NCBI GenBank assembly: GCA_017795025.1
Contig: CP051243.1
Location: 1,054,001-1,118,000 of the forward strand
Source: Flavobacteriales bacterium
GTDB lineage: Bacteria; Bacteroidota; Bacteroidia; Flavobacteriales; Schleiferiaceae
Length of the DNA stretch: 64,000 nt
Direction: 5' to 3'
Shown here: in pieces, positions 31,450-50,056 of the stretch
Layout of the letters: the number at the start of each line of letters is the position of its first letter
How positions within the stretch are numbered: position 1 is the stretch's first letter
The notes under the pieces: model-generated
Seen by the model: only the letters and a program-made list of their open reading frames with translations
What the model was told of the DNA's origin: nothing
Databases searched by the model: none
Made by a program: the position numbers and the translations under genes

Positions 31450-33876
31450 ATGCCTAGAGCTTACCTTTTAATCGTTTTTTTGCTAGCAGCAGCGATTACC
31501 TCTGCCCAAAAGAAAAGTATCGAACCTTTAAAGGCTGATGCTGATGTTGTAATCGATGGTATCCTTAACGACTCCATCTGGGCCTACGCCCCTGTAGCCA
31601 CTGATTTTGTGATGCTTTCTCCCGGTAGTGGAGAGAAGATTCCTGATAAATTTGAAACCACGGTTAAGGTTTTCTATACCAATGAAGCCATTTACTTTGG
31701 CTTTACCATGAAGGACCCTAGTCCGGACTCGATTTTACGACAAATTACGGTCCGCGACGATATCAATCAAAATCACGATTGGTTGGCAGTAGCCATAAAT
31801 CCTTTTAACGACGGGCAAAACGACTTTACCTTTTTTGTGAGTTCTTCCGGTACTCAAGGCGACAGCCGCACCACCGCTAATGGAGAGGATTACTCCTTTA
31901 ACTCTATTTGGTACTCGGCGGTGCAAATTACTGATGAAGGATGGGTATGCGAGATTAAAATCCCCTACATCTCTTTAAGGTTCCCCAATGAACTAGAGAA
32001 AAACTGGGGTTTCAATATGATTCGCAGTATTCGGCGTTCTAGGGAGGAATACTCTTGGAACTTTATCGATCGTCGCTCTGGCTACAGCTGGGAATATCAA
32101 GCGGGCCTGCTTAAAAACATGCGCGATATTGATCCTCCAATTCGCTTGTCCTTAATGCCATACGCCTCTACCTATGCCGACAATTTTCGCGGCGAAACTT
32201 CATATGAGTTTAATGCCGGTATGGACCTTAAATATGGGATTAACGAAAGCTTCACCCTTGATGCCACATTAATTCCTGATTTCGGTCAGGTAGCATTTGA
32301 TAATCAAGTTCTTAACCTCAGTCCCTTTGAAATCCAGTTTCAAGAAAACCGGCAATTTTTTAATGAAGGTACCGAGCTCTTTTCCTTGGGGGATTTATTT
32401 TATTCAAGGAGAATTGGTGGCGCACCGGAAAATATAAACAACCAAGATCTTTCGGGAAATGACAGCTTAAATGTGTCGGTACAAACCGAATTCACCAGGC
32501 TTTTAAATGCCACGAAAATATCGGGAAGAACAAATGGAAATTTGGGGATTGGCTTTTTAAATGCGGTTACTGATAATAACTACTCGACCATCGACTCCGC
32601 TGGAAGAGAGTTTAGGCAATTGTTAGAGCCTTTGACTAACTATAATGTATTTGTTTTAGACCAGCGATTTAACCGAAACTCCAGTGTTAGCTTTATTAAC
32701 ACTAATGTTTTACGAAACGGTCGTTATGCCGATGCCAATGTTGCGGGACTTTTGGCAAGTGTGTTTAGCAAAAGTGGACAGTACCGAGTAGACGCCCAAC
32801 TTAAAAGGAGCGATCAATTTATTAGCGATGGCCCTAACAGAAGTGGGGAGCAATACTATCTCCGCTTTGGAGATGTAGATGGCAATTGGCGCTGGGGTAT
32901 ACGTCAGGATATAATTAGCGATGATTTTGACCCCAACGATTTGGGCTTTTTACCACGTAACAATATGATTCGCAATTACAGCGAATTGGAATATGGAACC
33001 TTTAAGCCGAAAGGACCCTTTAATCGCACCTCCTTTACCCTTTTTAGCGTGCATTCCATGCTGTATAGCAACCAACGCTTTGAAGAGTTTTACCTCGGCT
33101 TTAACAGCTTTTTCCTTCTACGCGACTTTACAGGAACGGGTATTCGCCTGCGTTTACGTCCCCAAGAATCTTACGATTACTTCGAGCCTCGCATTGCCGG
33201 AGCCTATTTCCGAAAGCCGGTGAATTATGCCTTTATATATTTCATTTCCACCGACTACCGAAAACCACTTGCCTTGGATGTGGACTTTAATTACGACCGC
33301 ACCCCAGATTGGCGGCGTGATCACTACACCTTAGAGTTAGAACCACGCATTCGCTTTGGCGATCATTTCTTTATGATTCCCAATGTTACTTTCGATTTAT
33401 TTTATCGTGATCGGGGTTATGCCGGGCAAGAATGTAGAACATGTGATCCCATTTTTGGGGAGCGAAATATTCGAAACATAACGGCAGTAATAGAAGGCCG
33501 CTATGCCTTTAACCCCCTCTCCTCTTTGGGGCTTCGATTACGCCATTATTGGTCGAGGGTAGAGTTTAATGAGTATTACGACCTGCAGAGTGATGGTTAT
33601 TTAAGCGCCGCTCGAAACGCCAATGACAATTATGATCTTTATTTCAATACCATAAATATGGATTTGCGCTTTTCGTGGTGGTTTGCCCCGGCTAGTGAGA
33701 TGGTAATACTTTATCGCATGGCGCTGTCTAACAATGGTAACACGGATATTGTCTCCGATTACTTCCAAAATATTGATCAGGCTTTTAATGCTTCGGTCCG
33801 CAACAATATTTCAATTCGACTATCTTACTTCCTGGATTACCATCAAACGAAGAATCAATTGAAAGCTCGAAAATGA
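31450..33876 (+). CDS. DUF5916 outer-membrane protein with CBM9-like N-terminal domain
   Basis: 808 residues with a signal peptide (MPRAYLLIVFLLAAAITSAQ). The first 220 residues form a CBM9-type domain (DADVVIDGILNDSIWAYAP, FYTNEAIYFGFTMKDP, HDWLAVAINPFNDGQND) and the rest, with alternating aromatic strands (FRDYDYFEP-like repeats) and a C-terminus ending in a Tyr/Phe-rich strand region, is predicted to be an outer-membrane barrel as in other DUF5916 proteins. Its function is unknown; sugar or polymer binding at the surface is a guess from the CBM9 fold. The stop overlaps the lolD-like start by four bases. Confidence 0.88.
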   Translation: MPRAYLLIVFLLAAAITSAQKKSIEPLKADADVVIDGILNDSIWAYAPVATDFVMLSPGSGEKIPDKFETTVKVFYTNEAIYFGFTMKDPSPDSILRQITVRDDINQNHDWLAVAINPFNDGQNDFTFFVSSSGTQGDSRTTANGEDYSFNSIWYSAVQITDEGWVCEIKIPYISLRFPNELEKNWGFNMIRSIRRSREEYSWNFIDRRSGYSWEYQAGLLKNMRDIDPPIRLSLMPYASTYADNFRGETSYEFNAGMDLKYGINESFTLDATLIPDFGQVAFDNQVLNLSPFEIQFQENRQFFNEGTELFSLGDLFYSRRIGGAPENINNQDLSGNDSLNVSVQTEFTRLLNATKISGRTNGNLGIGFLNAVTDNNYSTIDSAGREFRQLLEPLTNYNVFVLDQRFNRNSSVSFINTNVLRNGRYADANVAGLLASVFSKSGQYRVDAQLKRSDQFISDGPNRSGEQYYLRFGDVDGNWRWGIRQDIISDDFDPNDLGFLPRNNMIRNYSELEYGTFKPKGPFNRTSFTLFSVHSMLYSNQRFEEFYLGFNSFFLLRDFTGTGIRLRLRPQESYDYFEPRIAGAYFRKPVNYAFIYFISTDYRKPLALDVDFNYDRTPDWRRDHYTLELEPRIRFGDHFFMIPNVTFDLFYRDRGYAGQECRTCDPIFGERNIRNITAVIEGRYAFNPLSSLGLRLRHYWSRVEFNEYYDLQSDGYLSAARNANDNYDLYFNTINMDLRFSWWFAPASEMVILYRMALSNNGNTDIVSDYFQNIDQAFNASVRNNISIRLSYFLDYHQTKNQLKARK

Positions 33877-34533: not shown

Positions 34534-35133
34534 ATGATAACGAGTAAAATTCAGGCTCTTATTGAGAAGGAAATTGAAGCTATTCGCAATATTCCAATCG
34601 ACGGAGTAATTGAGAAGGCCATTGATTTAATTCATCAGCAGGTCCACGAAAAGAATGGTAAAGTAGTGGTTTCGGGAATGGGTAAAGCTGGTCAAATTGG
34701 TATCAACATTGCCACCACCCTTAGCTCAACTGGCACCCCAGCCATCTTCCTCCACCCTAGTGAGGCGCAGCATGGCGATTTAGGTATGGTTCAAAAAGAT
34801 GATGTTCTCATTTTGATCTCCAATTCGGGAAAAACCCGTGAGATCATTGAACTCGAATATTTGGTTAAAAATTTATACCCTGGAATTAAGATCATTGGTT
34901 TAACCGGCCATCCTGATGGAAATTTAGCCCAATTTTCGGATGTAGTACTTCTCACTGGGAACCCCAAGGAAATTTGCCCCTTAGGGCTTACCCCCACCAC
35001 TTCTACTACAGTAATGACCGTTGTAGGTGATGTATTGGTTACCCAACTTATGGAGCGCATTGGTTTTAGTAAAGAAGAATACGCCAAAAGACACCATAGT
35101 GGTTACCTTGGCGATAAAGCACGAAAAAAATGA
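34534..35133 (+). CDS. kdsD: D-arabinose-5-phosphate isomerase, SIS-domain-only form
   Basis: First step of KDO synthesis: ribulose-5-phosphate to arabinose-5-phosphate. The 199-residue protein has the SIS fold with KVVVSGMGKAGQIGINIATT, LHPSEAQHGDLGMV, ILISNSGKTREI and CPLGLTPTTSTTVM, and ends in KRHHSGYLGDKARK. The second half of Escherichia coli KdsD, two CBS domains (about 120 residues), is missing, as in some Bacteroidota and plant-like short forms. The stop overlaps kdsA by four bases, and kdsA in turn overlaps kdsC: three consecutive steps of one pathway. Confidence 0.93.
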   Translation: MITSKIQALIEKEIEAIRNIPIDGVIEKAIDLIHQQVHEKNGKVVVSGMGKAGQIGINIATTLSSTGTPAIFLHPSEAQHGDLGMVQKDDVLILISNSGKTREIIELEYLVKNLYPGIKIIGLTGHPDGNLAQFSDVVLLTGNPKEICPLGLTPTTSTTVMTVVGDVLVTQLMERIGFSKEEYAKRHHSGYLGDKARKK

Positions 35134-35906
35134 AGTTTACCCTTATAGCAGGTCCTTGTGCCATTGAAGACCGTGACTTAGCCTTTTCTATAGCCCGTGA
35201 GGTTAAAGCGATTTGCGAGGACTTGGACATCCACTATATCTTTAAAGGAAGCTACCGGAAGGCCAATCGTTCTCGCTTGGACTCCTTCACCGGGATTGGC
35301 GATCAAGAGGCCTTAGAAATCCTTAAAGAAATTGGTCAAGAATTAAAGGTTGAAACCATTACCGATATCCATGAAAGTCATGAAGCAGCGGAGGCGGCCA
35401 AATACGTTGACCATCTTCAAATACCTGCTTTTCTTTGTCGACAAACCGACCTATTAATCGCCGCCGGGGAAACCGGAAAAGGGGTGAATATCAAGAAAGG
35501 TCAGTTTCTCTCTCCCGAAGCCATGAAGTGGCCAGTTGAAAAAGTGAAAAGCACTGGTAATACTAAAGTTTGGGCTTGTGAAAGAGGCGTTACCTTTGGC
35601 TATTCCGACTTAATTGTAGACGCAACCAGTATTAGTAGAATGAAAGAATTGGGGGTTCCTGTTATTATGGACTGTACCCATTCTGTTCAAAAGCCAAATC
35701 GTACCGAAGGGGTTACCGGTGGCGACCCTAAACTGATAGAGACCATTGCCTTGAGTGCAATTGCAACTGGGGCGGATGGCTTTTTTATCGAAACTCATCC
35801 CGAACCTCATACTGCACAGAGCGACCCCTATACCATGCTCGAGCTTAGCAAGCTTCGTGGAATACTTGAGAAGTGTATGAAAATTCGCAAAGCCCTCCAA
35901 GCATGA
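35130..35906 (+). CDS. kdsA: 3-deoxy-8-phosphooctulonate (KDO-8-P) synthase
   Basis: Condenses arabinose-5-phosphate with phosphoenolpyruvate to KDO-8-phosphate for the LPS inner core. The 258-residue TIM barrel starts IAGPCAIEDRDLAF and carries FKGSYRKANRSRLDSFTG, KGQFLSPEAMKWPVEK, RGVTFGYSDLIVD and the HPEPHTAQSDP phosphate loop. The Cys10 in AGPCAIE is the metal-binding position, so this appears to be the metal-dependent class. Its stop TGA overlaps the ATG of kdsC. Confidence 0.97.
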   Translation: MKFTLIAGPCAIEDRDLAFSIAREVKAICEDLDIHYIFKGSYRKANRSRLDSFTGIGDQEALEILKEIGQELKVETITDIHESHEAAEAAKYVDHLQIPAFLCRQTDLLIAAGETGKGVNIKKGQFLSPEAMKWPVEKVKSTGNTKVWACERGVTFGYSDLIVDATSISRMKELGVPVIMDCTHSVQKPNRTEGVTGGDPKLIETIALSAIATGADGFFIETHPEPHTAQSDPYTMLELSKLRGILEKCMKIRKALQA

Positions 35907-36571
35907 CCGATTACTGGGATAACCTAAGGGCCAACTTACATTACTTGCAAAGGACCATTTCTCCAACGCACCGCCTGTATGCAACTATAGAGCGGTTTTC
36001 TCGAGGAGCGAGTCTCGAGGTGTTTGATTTGTTTCGCATCGCTGAAGAAACCGGTTATCCTGCCGAAGTACTATTTAAAAAACGCATCGACCTACCGCCC
36101 AAAAAGGTGAAAATGCTGGTAATGGATTGTGATGGCGTTTTAACCAAAGGGGAAATGGTGGTTAGCACGGATGGCGAGCATACCAAAATCTTTAATGTTA
36201 AAGATGGAATGGGTATTAAGCGCTGTGAGCAAGCCGGTGTAATTACCGGAATCTTGTCGCACGGACATTCTACTGGTGTGGTTGAAGCCCGGGCCAAGCA
36301 ATTGGCTATCCCCGAAGTATATGTGGGGAAAACAGCAAAATTGGAAGTTATCGGCAAATGGTGGGCTAAGCATCAAATTTCTCCCGAAGAAACGGCCTAT
36401 ATCGGGGATGATATTAATGATATACCTGTCCTTGAAGCCGTAGGAGCCGCTTTTGCTCCGGCTGACGCAGTGGAAGAAGTTTTACTATTACCGGGAGTAC
36501 AGGTCCTTTCAAAAAAAGGAGGCGAAGGTTGCATTCGAGAAATGGTGGATAAACATCTTTTAATCGACTAA
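35903..36571 (+). CDS. kdsC: KDO-8-phosphate phosphatase with an N-terminal extension
   Basis: Dephosphorylates KDO-8-P to KDO. HAD type C0: nucleophile motif VMDCDGVLTKG (two Asp), NVKDGMGIKRCEQAG, SHGHSTGVVEARAKQL and GDDINDIPVL. The ATG at 35903 overlaps the kdsA stop (ATGA). The 222-residue product is longer than typical KdsC (about 180) because of an extra helical segment of about 55 residues before the HAD domain (DYWDNLRANLHYLQRTISP through DLFRIAEE); I do not recognise it. Last gene of the KDO set; four bases overlap the convergent EamA gene. Confidence 0.93.
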   Translation: MTDYWDNLRANLHYLQRTISPTHRLYATIERFSRGASLEVFDLFRIAEETGYPAEVLFKKRIDLPPKKVKMLVMDCDGVLTKGEMVVSTDGEHTKIFNVKDGMGIKRCEQAGVITGILSHGHSTGVVEARAKQLAIPEVYVGKTAKLEVIGKWWAKHQISPEETAYIGDDINDIPVLEAVGAAFAPADAVEEVLLLPGVQVLSKKGGEGCIREMVDKHLLID

Positions 36572-37937: not shown

Positions 37938-38000
37938 ATTAAGATTTACAACGAAGATACAACTTGATGCGCTTTGGGAGGAATAGCTAATTTAGGCCCA

Positions 38001-38840
38001 ATGAAATCCTACCTGTTATTCCTTTTGCAAAATAGCTCCCGTTATGAAGATTTAGGCGAGCCCCGTTTTGAAGGTGCCTTGGGAGTAGTTATGGCTTCCA
38101 TGGCCATTTTTATGCTATTTGTTTTACCCTCTTATTGGCTATGGAATGGGATTTGGGCAAATTACCCTCCATATTTACGCGCACCCTATCGTCAGTTTTT
38201 GCGTGAGCTCCCCTTCTACAGAAGGTTGCAGCCTAAACAAAAGAAATCCTTCGAGCGAAAAGTACAGCGCTTCATCAATCAAAAACAGTTTATCTCGAGA
38301 TCTAAAGGTTTACGCATTGATCACCGTAAAAAGGTTTTAATCGCAGGCACGGCCATCGAACTCACCTTCGGCTTTAAGCGCTTTGATTTTGCCCATTTTG
38401 ATAAAATCTTGGTTTACTCCAATGACTATTACTCAAAAATCAGCAAGCGCTACCATCGCGGAGAGGTAGATTTACGCGGGTATATCGTTTTATCCTGGGC
38501 CGCCTTTGAAGAAGGAAATGCAAATCGGAGTGATGGCATCAATTTGGGAATTCATGAGCTGGCCCATGCAGTAAAATTGGAGAATAAGATTACCAATCGG
38601 AATTATCGCTTTATAAGTAAACCCGACTATCGCATGTTTTATAATGCCTATAAAGCCTTTGCCGCTACCGCAGATGAACCCGGTGCATTATTGCGGAGCT
38701 ATGGCAAAACCAATATCCATGAATTCTTCGCAGTATGCTGCGAGAACTTCATTGAACGTCCACAAGAGTTTGAAGATCAAATGCCGAAACTCTACGCTTT
38801 AATGTGTAAAATGCTAAGAATGAATCCGCTGCGGATTTAA
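38001..38840 (+). CDS. MtfA-like zinc peptidase (M90), membrane-anchored
   Basis: From ATG 38001 the product has 279 residues with one N-terminal membrane segment (GVVMASMAIFMLFVLPSYWLW). The core matches MtfA: RVQRFINQKQF-like start, IVLSWAAFEEGN, LGIHELAHAVKLENK with the zinc motif HELAH, DEPGALLRSYGKTNIHEFFAVCCENF, where the Glu of the HEFFA/E helix completes the site. MtfA is a cytosolic Mlc-interacting peptidase in E. coli; here the anchor suggests a different setting. It converges on amt with a four-base overlap. Confidence 0.85.
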   Translation: MKSYLLFLLQNSSRYEDLGEPRFEGALGVVMASMAIFMLFVLPSYWLWNGIWANYPPYLRAPYRQFLRELPFYRRLQPKQKKSFERKVQRFINQKQFISRSKGLRIDHRKKVLIAGTAIELTFGFKRFDFAHFDKILVYSNDYYSKISKRYHRGEVDLRGYIVLSWAAFEEGNANRSDGINLGIHELAHAVKLENKITNRNYRFISKPDYRMFYNAYKAFAATADEPGALLRSYGKTNIHEFFAVCCENFIERPQEFEDQMPKLYALMCKMLRMNPLRI

Positions 38841-40318: not shown

Positions 40319-43066
40319 ATGAAGGCTAAACTCGCAGTTCTTTGGGGCCTCATTCTAATGCCCCTATTCAACTTTGCGGCTAACCATAAAATTATATGGG
40401 ATGGGAAGACATTTACGGCTCATTACACAGAAGTCGTAAGTCCCGAAAAAGCGAGGCAGTCTTTAAGTATTCATTTTCCCTTGCAAGCTTACCTTGACAA
40501 GAATTCCTTTCTTAATGATCAACTTAGAGAGTTTCAAGATCCAGATTTGCACTTCGCCAGTGAGGAAGAGCTAGCGCAATTAGAGATTATCCAATTAAAG
40601 GTAAATGGCAAACCCATTAGCCATCAGCTTGATAGCGAGTTTTTAGCCATCCCCAAAAATTCTGAGGAAGGGATTCGTATCGAAATCGAATATCGCTTTC
40701 AAATGCCAGAGGCAAAGTTTACCGGTAATGGTCGCTTAAAAGAAGAATTGCGCCTGATTGATATCTTACCGCGATTGTATTCTTCATCTGAAAAGGCACA
40801 GCCACAAAGCTATTACTATGATATCGCCAAGACCAAGGAAAACTACTATGTTGAATTGGATATGCCCGAGGAATGGGCGGCAGTATCCAATTTAAAGCAT
40901 CGAAAAGCAAAGAACGGAAACTGGGTGTTTGAAGGTGAGGCCCGTCAGTTTCAACTGTTTCTATCCAAAAGCTGGTATAGTTATGAGCTGGAGGAAGGGA
41001 TAAACTTGATTCTTCCCCAGGCAGACGAAGGCTTTAAGCTAAATTTCGAACTGGCCTTAAAGGAGTTGGGAAATTTCTTTAAAAATGAACTCGATCAAGA
41101 TCTTAGCAAAAATCGAAGTTATCTATTTCTCGATGATAAGAAAGGGGAATATCAGAGTGCGGGCCTTATTAGCCTGGAGCGGCCTAAAAAATGGGATGAT
41201 TTACGCATTGATTTAGCGCAAGCAATCGCAGAGTCTTTCTTCCGTTACACCCTAAATACCAATGGTTGGCAGAACCCCTGGATGGCAAGAGGGATACCCT
41301 ATTACTACAAGTATCATTTTATTGAAGAAAATTATCCTCAAAAGCGCTGGATTCCTTTTCAAAGCCCGATTTTAAATGGACTCTTTGGTTTCGATGCTTT
41401 TGACTTTGGCTATCAAAACCGGTTTTTATTTCTCTTTTTACAAAGGCAGGGATTGGATCAAGCAATGTCGGCACCGGTCGATTCTCTTTCGCGACTTAAT
41501 TACGAGGCGATTAGTCAGGCGAAATCCTATTTAAGTTTAAGCCACTTAAGGGCCTACACCGGCGACAAAGATTTTAAAAGGGCGCTAAGAAGATTCTATC
41601 ATGAATATGCCGAAAAGACTGGTCCTGAGGAGTTAAAGGCCTCCTTTGAGTTTTACAGCCCCAAGCCTTTGGACTGGTTCTTTGAAGACGTGATTCAGAC
41701 GGCGGAGATTTACGACTATCAACTGAAATCGATAGACTATTGCGCAACTGTAAGCACCGCAACTGTTTATAATAGTGGGGATTTAGCCATTCCCTACGCT
41801 CTTACGGGCTTTATTGACGGTAAGCCCGTTTTAACGGAATGGTATGCGGGTCATACTGGCGAGAAAAGTGTGCAGATGTATCACTCGGAATATGACAAAG
41901 TGGTTCTTAATGCTCATTTGAGACATGCAGAATATCGCCAAAAGAACAATATCGTTTACAACCGCTGGCTATTCCCGAGAGCCGAGCCCTTAAGTTTTCA
42001 GTTATATAATAGTTTCGAAGCAGCGGAGGCTAGTCAAGTATTCTATGTCCCAAGCCTCTATTACAACGCCTACGACAAATTCCTGCTTGGAATAAATCTC
42101 TCCAATCGCTCCATTCTAGTGCAAAAACCCTTTGAGTGGTTGGTGGTGCCGGAATACAGTACGGGAACCGGAAAAATTACGGGAACAGCTTCTCTGGCCT
42201 ACAATTGGACCTTGCCCAAAAATGCGCTTTTCCGTCAGGTTAAGTTTGGGGTATACAGTCGTTATAATCACTATGATCGAGATTTAGCCTACTATCGAAT
42301 TTCGCCTTCGATAAACTTTTACATCCGTAAACCCCATCCTCGCAGTCCGTATATTCAATCCTTGCGATTTAGGGCGGTGATTTTAAATCGGGAGCAGGCT
42401 CCAAATCAGACCGAAAACCTCAACCGAATAGAATCGGCCAGTTATTCTGTTTTTAATGCGAATTACCGAATGGAGTACACCTCTCTCCTTAGACCCACCA
42501 TTTTTCGTAGCCACATTGAACTTGGGGGACGCTTTGGTAAGGTCTTCGCCGAATGTGACCAACGATGGATGTTGCCTAATAAGAAATGGTTAATCCTAAG
42601 GGGCTTTGCAGGTGCCTTCCTTTATAATGACGCGGCGGATGCTGGTCAGTTCGATAACTTTTACAGCTTTGGATTAAGCGGTACGCCCGATTATTTATTC
42701 GATTATTACCTGATCGGGCGCTCTGACCAAACTGGAATTTGGAGCCGACAATTCTTCACAACGGACGGCGGTTTTAAATCTGAAACCCAAGCTTTTGCCG
42801 ATCAATTCCTTTTAAGCAGTAACCTCAGTGTACCCATTATAGGTCCCCTTGGCGCTTTCGCTGATGTAGCCCTATCGGAAGAGCAAATGTATTGGGACTA
42901 CGGTGTGCGGCTTGCACTTTTAACCGATTTCTTGGAGGTCTACTTCCCCATTCAAAATCAAGATCGAAACTTCTACTCTGAAGCAAACTATGCGCAAAAC
43001 TTACGTTTTGTTTTGGACCTTAACCTTGGTAGTATTATTAATCGTTTACGCAGGGGCTACTACTAA
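40319..43066 (+). CDS. Inactive-looking M1-aminopeptidase-like outer-membrane protein
   Basis: 915 residues with a signal peptide (MKAKLAVLWGLILMPLFNFAA). Residues 40-480 follow the layout of M1 aminopeptidases: an N-terminal beta saddle, then a helical domain in which DLAQAIAESFFRYTLNTNGWQNPWMARGIPYYYKY (about 298-332) lines up with the M1 HELAHxWFG...W.N.WL.EGFA.Y helices. The zinc residues are gone: no HExxH, and the distal Glu of EGFA is replaced by R-G-I-P. The C-terminal 330 residues are rich in alternating aromatic strands (YNAYDKFLLGINL, FLEVYFPI, LRFVLDLNLGSIINRLR) and look like a beta-barrel. It should bind rather than cleave. Neighbours give no further hint. Confidence 0.72.
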   Translation: MKAKLAVLWGLILMPLFNFAANHKIIWDGKTFTAHYTEVVSPEKARQSLSIHFPLQAYLDKNSFLNDQLREFQDPDLHFASEEELAQLEIIQLKVNGKPISHQLDSEFLAIPKNSEEGIRIEIEYRFQMPEAKFTGNGRLKEELRLIDILPRLYSSSEKAQPQSYYYDIAKTKENYYVELDMPEEWAAVSNLKHRKAKNGNWVFEGEARQFQLFLSKSWYSYELEEGINLILPQADEGFKLNFELALKELGNFFKNELDQDLSKNRSYLFLDDKKGEYQSAGLISLERPKKWDDLRIDLAQAIAESFFRYTLNTNGWQNPWMARGIPYYYKYHFIEENYPQKRWIPFQSPILNGLFGFDAFDFGYQNRFLFLFLQRQGLDQAMSAPVDSLSRLNYEAISQAKSYLSLSHLRAYTGDKDFKRALRRFYHEYAEKTGPEELKASFEFYSPKPLDWFFEDVIQTAEIYDYQLKSIDYCATVSTATVYNSGDLAIPYALTGFIDGKPVLTEWYAGHTGEKSVQMYHSEYDKVVLNAHLRHAEYRQKNNIVYNRWLFPRAEPLSFQLYNSFEAAEASQVFYVPSLYYNAYDKFLLGINLSNRSILVQKPFEWLVVPEYSTGTGKITGTASLAYNWTLPKNALFRQVKFGVYSRYNHYDRDLAYYRISPSINFYIRKPHPRSPYIQSLRFRAVILNREQAPNQTENLNRIESASYSVFNANYRMEYTSLLRPTIFRSHIELGGRFGKVFAECDQRWMLPNKKWLILRGFAGAFLYNDAADAGQFDNFYSFGLSGTPDYLFDYYLIGRSDQTGIWSRQFFTTDGGFKSETQAFADQFLLSSNLSVPIIGPLGAFADVALSEEQMYWDYGVRLALLTDFLEVYFPIQNQDRNFYSEANYAQNLRFVLDLNLGSIINRLRRGYY

Positions 43067-43099
43067 AAAAAGGTTGACCCTAAATGAGCCAACCTTTTT
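43067..43099. terminator. Bidirectional terminator
   Basis: AAAAAGGTTG and CAACCTTTTT form a ten-base stem with A and T tracts on both sides, between the convergent M1-like and barrel genes. Confidence 0.85.
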
Positions 43100-43117
43100 A
43101 ATTTCTTGCGATGCTAA

Positions 43118-48412: not shown

Positions 48413-50056
48413 TTACTGTTTAATAAATCTGCTGCTTGCTTCACCGCGGTCGGTACTCACCTTAATGAAGTACACACCTGGGCTTAAAGCATCAATAGCA
48501 ATGCTGTTTTTCATTTCATCTAGGTCACCCGCCATAATAGTACGGCCCGTATTATCGATGATCTCGAAGTTATTGAGGTTTAAGTCTGCATCACTTAAAT
48601 CCAAATTCAATACGCTTTGGGCTGGATTCGGATATAATGAAATCACTTTATTAAAGTCAAACTCCTCCTCGCTAATCAAGTTCATTTGATAAACTAAACG
48701 GGGTGTAACGTAACCTAGGATGGTATCCTGATAGGTACGACCATAGCTGGAAGACATGTTTGGATTGCTGGCTAAACCTGCCATGTGGTAAGTAATTACG
48801 GGAGGACCTGCAATTAAAGTATCAGAAGCAATGGGGCCATTTGGATCCCACCACTGCCAAGGAGCACCAGTATTATTAAATAAGCCGGTTTGAGAAAGTG
48901 GCAATAAAACTGGGAACATACCTTCTGCACTAGCGATAGTAATAGTATCGAAAGGAGCTGGGAAAATGTAAGGAACAGTTAAGCCGTAACGTGCACGAGC
49001 GGCTAGAGTAATACCGTCATTGTAGGTATTATTGATCCAGGCATTATTATTACCCAAGTTATTGGCTTTAGCTTGGAAGATATTTGCTCCGGATACATCT
49101 ACAACGTCGTCTTGAGTAGTGGGGACTACAACGGTTCCATCACCAAATGGTGCAAATGGATCACGAACACATTGGAACGAAATCATAGAAGCATCTCCCG
49201 CTTCTAACCAAGAGATATCGGCCAAGGCACCTCCCATGTTTACACACATAGAAATGTCGGTCGACTGTCCATTATCAACATAAAGGTTGAGGTTACCATT
49301 AAGACCCTCGATATTTCCTACTAAATTGGAATCAACGAAAGAGGTAGAAGTAGCGGGGTTAATGAACTTGGCAATTTCAACTTCCGCCCACTTATCCAAA
49401 GTAGCGTAAGCTAGAGCAACATAACCTCCAGAACCTTCACCAAAGAATACAATGCGATTAGGGTCAATACCTAGGTTGGCAGCATCGGCCTTTAAAACCC
49501 GTACCAATTCCTTCATATCGTGGATGGCACGATAAACCGCATTAAGAAGCTGAGCGCGACGTACAAACTGGTTTGGATCTAATGGGTTCCAACCTAAACG
49601 GTAATTAGCAGCTACGGCTACAAAACCACGCTTGGCCAAACTTTCGCACATTGCAATTGCCGAGCTATCATTCTTAGAACCATTAATACCACCGTTTAAT
49701 CCAGGAGGTAAAAAGTTTCCAGTGTGAATGTAAACAGCTAAGGGACGATTAGTAGCGGTATCGCCCATAGGCTCATACATGTCCATTGTAAGGGTAGTTA
49801 CCTTTACATCGGTAGTCGTATCAAATGGATTGAAGAATGCCGCTGGGATAGGTTGACCAGTTGCTAAAGCGGTTTTAATCGCCGTAACATCCATAACCAC
49901 TGAAGCAGGATCACTTAAATCAGAGGTAAGGAAATCAATATTGGTGGCATAAGGTTGGTCCGCTGTTACGGATACCTGAGTAAAAACTTCAGAGGTATAG
50001 CGTTGTGCCATAGCCACACTACTGAAGGCTAAAAGAAAAAGTAATGTTCTTTTCAT
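48413..50056 (-). CDS. Secreted alpha/beta-hydrolase-fold protein with T9SS type A sorting domain
   Basis: 547 residues: signal peptide (MKRTLLFLLAFSSVAMA), then an esterase-like fold (LAVYIHTGNFLPPGLNG like the oxyanion region of carboxylesterases; GFVAVAANYRLGWNP; IHDMKELVRVLKADAANLGIDPNRIVFFG), and a C-terminal T9SS domain (SLYPNPAQSVLNLDL ... FEIIDNTGRTIM ... LSPGVYFIKVSTDRGE). The nucleophile elbow reads FGEGSGGY where active carboxylesterases have G-E-S-A-G-G, so the Ser is displaced by one residue and a Gly occupies the catalytic position. It may be a binding protein or an altered enzyme. The TonB receptor gene is 48 bases upstream in the same orientation, so they are likely co-transcribed. 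Confidence 0.85.
   Translation of the reverse strand: MKRTLLFLLAFSSVAMAQRYTSEVFTQVSVTADQPYATNIDFLTSDLSDPASVVMDVTAIKTALATGQPIPAAFFNPFDTTTDVKVTTLTMDMYEPMGDTATNRPLAVYIHTGNFLPPGLNGGINGSKNDSSAIAMCESLAKRGFVAVAANYRLGWNPLDPNQFVRRAQLLNAVYRAIHDMKELVRVLKADAANLGIDPNRIVFFGEGSGGYVALAYATLDKWAEVEIAKFINPATSTSFVDSNLVGNIEGLNGNLNLYVDNGQSTDISMCVNMGGALADISWLEAGDASMISFQCVRDPFAPFGDGTVVVPTTQDDVVDVSGANIFQAKANNLGNNNAWINNTYNDGITLAARARYGLTVPYIFPAPFDTITIASAEGMFPVLLPLSQTGLFNNTGAPWQWWDPNGPIASDTLIAGPPVITYHMAGLASNPNMSSSYGRTYQDTILGYVTPRLVYQMNLISEEEFDFNKVISLYPNPAQSVLNLDLSDADLNLNNFEIIDNTGRTIMAGDLDEMKNSIAIDALSPGVYFIKVSTDRGEASSRFIKQ

Follow-up and report, generated by a model that had tools for sequence, protein, structure and literature searches.

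We examined an open reading frame (ORF) at positions 40319 to 43066 of a 64,000-nucleotide stretch (the window) from contig CP051243.1 of a Flavobacteriales bacterium of the family Schleiferiaceae (assembly GCA_017795025.1; a 3.44-Mb genome in one contig). It starts with ATG and encodes a protein of 915 amino acids (aa), which the original prediction, made from the letters of the DNA, had read as an M1-aminopeptidase fold that lost its zinc site and gained a barrel-like C terminus. The first 21 residues of the translation, read by eye, resemble a signal peptide and contain no visible lipobox cysteine; the predicted structure of the remainder falls into a three-domain N-terminal part and a C-terminal barrel.

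40319..43066, + strand: whole ORF, pseudo-M1-Omp85-like protein of 915 aa, matched in 155 of 296 genomes of the order (E ≤ 1e-5)
40319..40381, + strand: signal-peptide-like N terminus (residues 1-21), by eye from the translation; helix at residues 2-17 in the model
40379..41023, + strand: M1 N-terminal beta domain (residues 21-235), chiefly strands in the model; inside the M1 structural alignment of residues 17-573
41027..41698, + strand: M1 catalytic-fold domain without an active site (residues 237-460), chiefly helices, of low confidence at about residues 341-400; M1 structure matches
41714..41956, + strand: domain III, all-beta and of M1 type (residues 466-546), strands with no helix of four or more residues; inside the same alignment
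42038..43015, + strand: predicted 16-stranded Omp85-type beta-barrel (residues 574-899), from the models; TamA, BamA, SAM and FhaC matches

An M1 fold joined to a predicted Omp85-type barrel

Sequence searches by themselves make a weak case for an M1 peptidase: Pfam recovers PF01433 alone at a sub-cut-off E value of 0.011, the aminopeptidase N model of NCBIfam, at 0.0069, falls far short of its cut-off, and the sequences of the PDB yield puromycin-sensitive aminopeptidase at 0.026. The fold itself is well supported by a full-length AlphaFold2 model built from 11 sequences, namely the window protein and 10 relatives (mean predicted local distance difference test score [pLDDT], 74). In this model, residues 17-573 adopt the M1-aminopeptidase fold, with domains I, II and III, and align with an engineered tricorn-interacting factor F3 at a VIA-align Z score of 21.9 (root mean square deviation, 4.1; 450 aligned residues). 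The best Foldseek match is IRAP (1.3e-16), and all 50 matches listed by each of the two programs are M1 aminopeptidases or complexes containing one. The pLDDT by block in this part lies mostly at 74-94, falling to 43-70 at residues 341-400. The fold assignment of the original prediction is thus borne out by the structure search it had called for, which returned a clear M1 architecture and not a fold unrelated to these peptidases.

The C-terminal region was also modelled alone (residues 560-915; 13 sequences; pLDDT 72), and both this and the whole-protein model place 16 strands at residues 574-899, the last of them four residues long. Of the 50 Foldseek matches listed for the barrel, every one is TamA, BamA, SAM or FhaC (best, 8.3e-6), while Omp85-superfamily entries occupy 19 of the best 20 places in VIA-align, with Z up to 16.2. 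The “about 330 residues of barrel-like strands” noted earlier can accordingly be sharpened to an Omp85-like barrel with a definite strand count; the idea that it was gained by the site-less protein fares worse, as described below. Omp85 proteins carry the signatures (V/I)RG(Y/F) in loop L6 and (F/G)xDxG on strand 13, the latter belonging to a “lid lock” motif, and TamA and BamA share a conserved glycine on strand 14 (PMC4490367). Three features of the window protein can be set beside these, with counts from an alignment of 94 full-length homologues.

42629..42805, + strand: long stretch between strands 11 and 12, in the place of Omp85 loop L6, with R801; modelled at low confidence, R801 in 88 of 94 rows
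42857..42871, + strand: motif F847-x-D849-x-A851 on strand 13, resembling the Omp85 lid lock; F or Y in 94 of 94 rows, D in 88 of 94
42902..42904, + strand: strand-14 glycine G862, in 94 of 94 rows

On strand 13 the window protein reads F847-A-D849-V-A851 and so ends in alanine, the residue found at that place in 15 rows as against glycine in 78. No POTRA domain is present in the model; the all-beta domain III stands directly before the barrel and thereby occupies the position that POTRA domains hold in other Omp85 proteins. A profile beginning at domain III weakly matches, through its start, shorter ORFs of about 560-740 aa.

Several observations weigh against an Omp85 assignment. LamB enters the best 20 of VIA-align at row 20 (Z 14.7), and LptD (14.1), maltoporin, Fiu (13.1), CymA and ZnuD follow at Z 12.9-14.1, so that non-Omp85 barrels lie only some 1.5-3.3 Z units below the best Omp85 row. 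The conserved R801 sits in GRS(D/E) and not RG(F/Y), in a loop with pLDDT below 50. PF01103, the Pfam Omp85 model, gives no match to the barrel at E ≤ 10, and the ORF is absent from the four places in its own genome where that model does match. Profile comparison with TamL-type relatives is moderate (probability 62), and similarity to BamA alone is absent (0.2); against all Omp85 relatives used the value is 47.8, compared with 0.4 for a reversed control. The barrel is left unnamed by Pfam in all 8 family members scanned, and a search of the PDB with a barrel profile returned no match. Taking the models, the structural matches and the conserved residues together, we consider that a barrel of Omp85 type is likely and has fair support.

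Two further ORFs combine peptidase-like sequence with such a barrel. One, on the minus strand of G008, another genome of the order (L178:1089-4001), is an M1 ORF that retains HEIGH and DEG motifs and whose last 233 residues match PF01103 (3.4e-9); the match is not listed when a 370-aa fragment or the whole ORF is searched, and its barrel lacks profile similarity to that of the window (probability 0.5). It may be either another, separate M1-Omp85 fusion or a divergent representative of the M1-barrel family described here, and the same two results make it a weak bridge between the window barrel and the Pfam Omp85 family. The other (G009, L177:2-3037, plus strand) carries an Omp85 barrel and PD40 repeats; by eye, its N-terminal part is peptidase-like and lacks HExxH.

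Loss of the active site from a widespread fusion

The catalytic positions were compared in the 94 homologues, a set that excludes rows shorter than 850 aa, identical rows, rows of a first batch that were open at an end, and the truncated protein L102; the catalytic tyrosine and the GxMEN motif were counted after removal of 18 close relatives, in the remaining 76 rows. The four zinc and catalytic positions read H-E-H-E in 22 of the 94 rows, here termed intact, and are altered in the other 72, termed site-less.

41141..41161, + strand: KGEYQSA at the site of the GxMEN motif (residues 275-281); all 22 intact rows have the motif Glu, none of the 54 others
41219..41233, + strand: former HExxH, here Q301, A302, I, A, E305, from the alignment
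41288..41290, + strand: former distal Glu zinc ligand, here R324, from the alignment
41516..41518, + strand: Q400, at the site of the former catalytic Tyr; all 22 intact rows have Tyr, none of the 54 others

At the positions held by H, E, H and E in intact relatives, the window protein thus carries Q301, A302, E305 and R324, with Q400 in place of the catalytic tyrosine and KGEYQSA in place of GGGMEYP. The absence of the two histidines and the distal glutamate had been recognized from the sequence and is confirmed by the alignment; that list was incomplete, in that the catalytic glutamate, the tyrosine and the GxMEN glutamate are gone as well, making six of six positions changed. Loss of the catalytic site is therefore well supported. 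We dropped the notion that the loss is all-or-nothing, since lone residues persist in some site-less rows (HRHS, with both histidines, in L042; HAER, with one, in L006; also DEQE and HACE), and it is the tyrosine and the GxMEN glutamate alone that have disappeared from all 54.

The replacements show some regularity. In the 11 rows nearest the window protein, E or Q at 305 accompanies R324, and in rows of family f3, presumably the Flavobacteriaceae, K301 accompanies D or E at 324. Residues of opposite charge stand at 301/324 or 305/324 in 22 of 47 site-less rows; shuffling yields 13.9 on average, a comparison uncorrected for kinship. As a hint from the alignment, a salt bridge, E305-R324 in the near relatives of the window protein, may have taken the place of the zinc.

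The family itself is widespread. In 155 of 296 genomes of the order, the full-length window protein has a match at E ≤ 1e-5, in a few cases a weak one; no match was obtained in the other 141, and the 20 of these that are listed all belong to small-genome genera of the window's family, f1 (g11, g12 and g14; 1.5-2.3 Mb). Within g11, genome G155 gives a weak match. A profile of domain III plus barrel recovers the M1-barrel family (E ≤ 1e-20) in 249 of 396 genomes sampled from the class at ≥90% completeness, members of the order included, mostly at one place per genome. Outside the order, HExxH and the distal glutamate are kept in 44 of 46 proteins: 16 of 17 in a first batch, in which 20 were fetched and L102 (truncated), L112 and L113 (both without a barrel-profile match) were set aside, and 28 of 29 in a second, where a simple pattern also finds a GxMEN-type motif in 21 of 29. 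HExxH is lost in two M1-barrel proteins from outside the order, L217 (G745) and L109 (G626). Among the rows seen within the order, the intact site occurs in families f5, f7, f11 and f14 and in genus g53 of f15; it is missing in f1, f2, f3, f4, f6, f12 and f13 and in genus g31 of f15.

Since M1-barrel proteins outside the order mostly keep the site, the fusion predates its loss. The relatives with an intact site that the original prediction proposed to look for thus exist, both in the alignment and beyond the order, and they carry the same barrel, so that a gain of the barrel by the site-less protein is not upheld. By these sequence comparisons, the ancestor was an M1-barrel fusion bearing an active site; the barrel came first and the site was lost later.

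The loss occurred in place. The intact L028 (family f5, in L157) and the site-less L006 share an order of nine gene clusters, among them the M1-barrel gene, and L006 has three additional ORFs; because this gene order is common to both, the same gene lost its site where it stands. The number of losses was approached with trees of domain III plus barrel, from which L217 is absent and in which L174 lies on a long branch. A tree of 76 rows requires three changes of state and one of 72 rows four, three of them forced by starred branches. In both, the intact L028 joins the site-less f1 proteins with support of 100/98, suggesting that f1 and the f3/f6 group lost the site independently. An approximately unbiased test on 28 selected rows under a simpler model did not reject a grouping of the 19 site-less rows of the order (p 0.149), a result compatible with a single loss within the order. 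Beyond the order, L109 lost its site separately, because it pairs with an intact protein at 100/100. The residues that replace the site differ between clades.

Constraint and proposed role of the site-less M1 part

Conservation is distributed differently in the two groups. Among pairs with 25-35% identity in the barrel, the catalytic-fold domain averages 43% identity in intact pairs (n = 29) and 23% in site-less pairs of f3/f6 type (n = 138, a set that includes L109); at 35-45% barrel identity, intact pairs stand at 42% and those of the window's clade at 23%, with the reservation for all bins that pairs below 25% barrel identity were excluded and that the pairs are not independent. Conservation in site-less proteins is higher in the barrel, with a mean major-residue frequency of 0.50, than in the M1 part (0.35 in the catalytic-fold domain), and in intact proteins the opposite holds. 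On this comparison, constraint has moved from the enzyme to the barrel. The M1-part residues common to the intact and site-less groups are few; within the 11 rows nearest the window, 38 residues of the catalytic-fold domain are invariant. In one close pair, L065/L066, of family f3 and not that of the window, this domain has a ratio of nonsynonymous to synonymous substitution rates (dN/dS) of 0.06 at dS 0.13-0.29, so that in the sole pair close enough to measure, the dead domain is under purifying selection.

The retention of the protein after loss of its site suggests a job that does not need catalysis. We propose, at roughly even odds, that the M1 fold on its Omp85 barrel serves as a periplasmic, noncatalytic binding module at the outer membrane. 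The C termini of outer-membrane barrels are periplasmic, and because the predicted strand number is even, the M1 part would likewise lie in the periplasm. Starting from an ancestral fusion with an active site, in which all six catalytic positions changed and the gene stayed in place, the M1 cavity could hold peptides or unfolded segments of envelope proteins beside the barrel, acting as POTRA domains do by binding and not cutting, with an E305-R324 salt bridge perhaps substituting for zinc in the near relatives of the window protein. Such a binding arm might aid assembly or quality control at the outer membrane. The binding role, the periplasmic topology and the salt bridge are what we infer; the original description of a repurposed peptidase fold at the outer membrane holds as far as an M1 fold without a zinc site on a predicted barrel is concerned, on the strength of the fold comparison, the alignment and the homologues, and “repurposed” is the interpretive part of it.

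Some results tell against this proposal. The dN/dS value comes from one pair, the dS of the catalytic-fold domain being saturated in the other 9 site-less pairs, and the faster evolution of the M1 part could mean that its role is modest. The neighbourhoods offer no help with function: we considered deriving one from adjacent genes and rejected this, as the neighbours look like housekeeping genes, indicate no pathway and are of use for orthology only.

The strongest alternative, which we regard as possible though doubtful, is that the barrel does the work, for example, in protein or lipid passage or in assembly, and that the dead M1 part serves only structurally, as a cap, plug or dimerization piece in place of POTRA. 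The superior conservation of the barrel in site-less proteins and the paucity of M1-part residues held in common by the two groups both fit this scenario; the 38 invariant residues in the nearest rows and the low dN/dS, albeit from one pair of another family, sit less easily with it. We think it unlikely that the barrel instead pushes the M1 part to the cell surface in the manner of a type V passenger. PlpD, a patatin-like Omp85 protein, was long thought to work as a type V passenger system (PMC4104836), but its enzyme domain was later placed in the periplasm (PMC11116518), where the even strand number would also put the M1 part.

Somewhat less probable still is an ordinary porin-type barrel with only a generic resemblance to Omp85: the scores of LamB, LptD and Fiu approach that of the best row, and PF01103 and the BamA profile both go unmatched, but the Foldseek matches listed are Omp85 proteins throughout, and the strand count, loop position and strand-13 and -14 residues fit that superfamily. 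Slightly weaker again is the suggestion that the M1 part remains a hydrolase, with migrated or different catalytic residues. Selection on the domain in one pair and the surviving histidines of L042 and L006 could be cited for it, and presumed pseudoenzymes can prove active, as is reported for two deubiquitinases (PMC12037411); against it stand the change of all six positions in the window protein, the disappearance of the tyrosine and the GxMEN glutamate from every site-less row counted, and the variation of the replacements between clades. That the M1 part is a decaying relic carried by a useful barrel is the least credible reading, for despite its faster evolution and an in-frame TAG in one site-less match (G181, at a contig edge), all 72 site-less rows are ORFs (partly a matter of selection, as rows were picked as long ORFs), the dN/dS of L065/L066 is low, and the M1 part is still predicted with good block pLDDT over most of its length.

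Relation to known systems and neighbouring genes

With the M1 aminopeptidases (PF01433; e.g., tricorn-interacting factor F3, PepN, and ERAP1), the window protein shares the fold of domains I-III; it differs in lacking the zinc ligands, the catalytic glutamate and tyrosine, and the GxMEN glutamate, and in having a predicted membrane barrel. Many M1 enzymes have a helical domain where this barrel stands. To the Omp85 superfamily (BamA, TamA, TamL, Sam50, and FhaC), it is linked by the predicted 16-stranded C-terminal barrel, the long stretch after strand 11, the strand-13 FxDx(A/G) motif and the strand-14 glycine; it departs from that superfamily in having no POTRA domain, a loop arginine in GRS(D/E) and no PF01103 match. 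POTRA domains are usual but not universal in Omp85 proteins, the exceptions being groups termed “noNterm” and “Metallo” (PMC4104836). The latter, which is called an Omp85-metalloprotease and for which periplasmic quality control has been suggested, likewise has a POTRA-less Omp85 barrel with an N-terminal metal-enzyme domain; that domain is given as PF00149 and not as M1, and the group is conserved at the genus level only (PMC4104836). PlpD too has a hydrolase fold N-terminal to an Omp85 barrel, in its case periplasmic (PMC11116518), but combines patatin and POTRA domains, unlike the M1 fold, absent POTRA and dead site of the window protein. The Flavobacterium johnsoniae proteins BamG, BamH, BamM and BamP are also outer-membrane parts of Bacteroidota and are not described as peptidase-like in the available portion of their report (PMC12611786), in whose main text “peptidase” and “aminopeptidase” occur 0 times. 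We rejected an identification of the window protein with one of these subunits of the beta-barrel assembly machinery, as these are a FadL-family protein (BamG), two lipoproteins of the cell surface (BamH and BamM) and a periplasmic protein (BamP) (PMC12611786).

A survey of Omp85 proteins recognized ten subfamilies, including WD40, patatin and “Metallo” fusions, and in the portion available, an M1 fusion is not among them (PMC4104836). A 2026 review counts at least 12 members and, in its available portion, names none with an M1 peptidase. Among the papers listed by searches of the open-licence PubMed Central literature aimed at an M1-Omp85 fusion, none reports one. More tentatively than the binding role itself, we suggest that these proteins might constitute an undescribed Omp85 subfamily across Bacteroidia, in which a periplasmic aminopeptidase fold stands in for POTRA and, in several families of the order, has become a noncatalytic binding arm with clade-specific salt bridges (E305-R324 and K301-D324) in place of zinc, acting in the biogenesis or quality control of outer-membrane proteins. 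Omp85 proteins are outer-membrane builders. A role in protein assembly has been called the most conservative hypothesis for those without a known function (PMC4104836). The M1-barrel protein is common in the class and mostly single-copy. Most of the lineages checked have an intact aminopeptidase, some families of the order a dead one, and the protein amounts to a natural experiment. If, as we presume, an orthologue exists in a culturable relative such as F. johnsoniae, the role of POTRA-less Omp85 fusions becomes testable there.

Directly after the stop codon of the ORF, between two convergent genes, an inverted repeat with A/T tails (window positions 43067-43100) was seen by eye and looks like a shared terminator. 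Of 26 neighbourhoods of the M1-barrel gene, 12 contain a gene that reads like an alpha-keto acid dehydrogenase E1 component, and UvrA-like, LOG-like and other genes, likewise named from reading, recur. An M90/MtfA-like metallopeptidase is encoded upstream in the window (37974-38840, plus strand; PF06167, 1.5e-39), and a similar gene also lies near the M1-barrel gene in three close relatives (L152, L153, and L004). Farther upstream, three successive plus-strand ORFs at 34534-36571 read like genes of the 3-deoxy-d-manno-octulosonic acid (Kdo) pathway, for a sugar isomerase, KdsA and KdsC, beside a LolD-like ATPase at 33873, all named from reading. Downstream, a minus-strand ORF at 48413-50056 is esterase-like, and its end has a pattern that we take to be a type IX secretion sorting domain.

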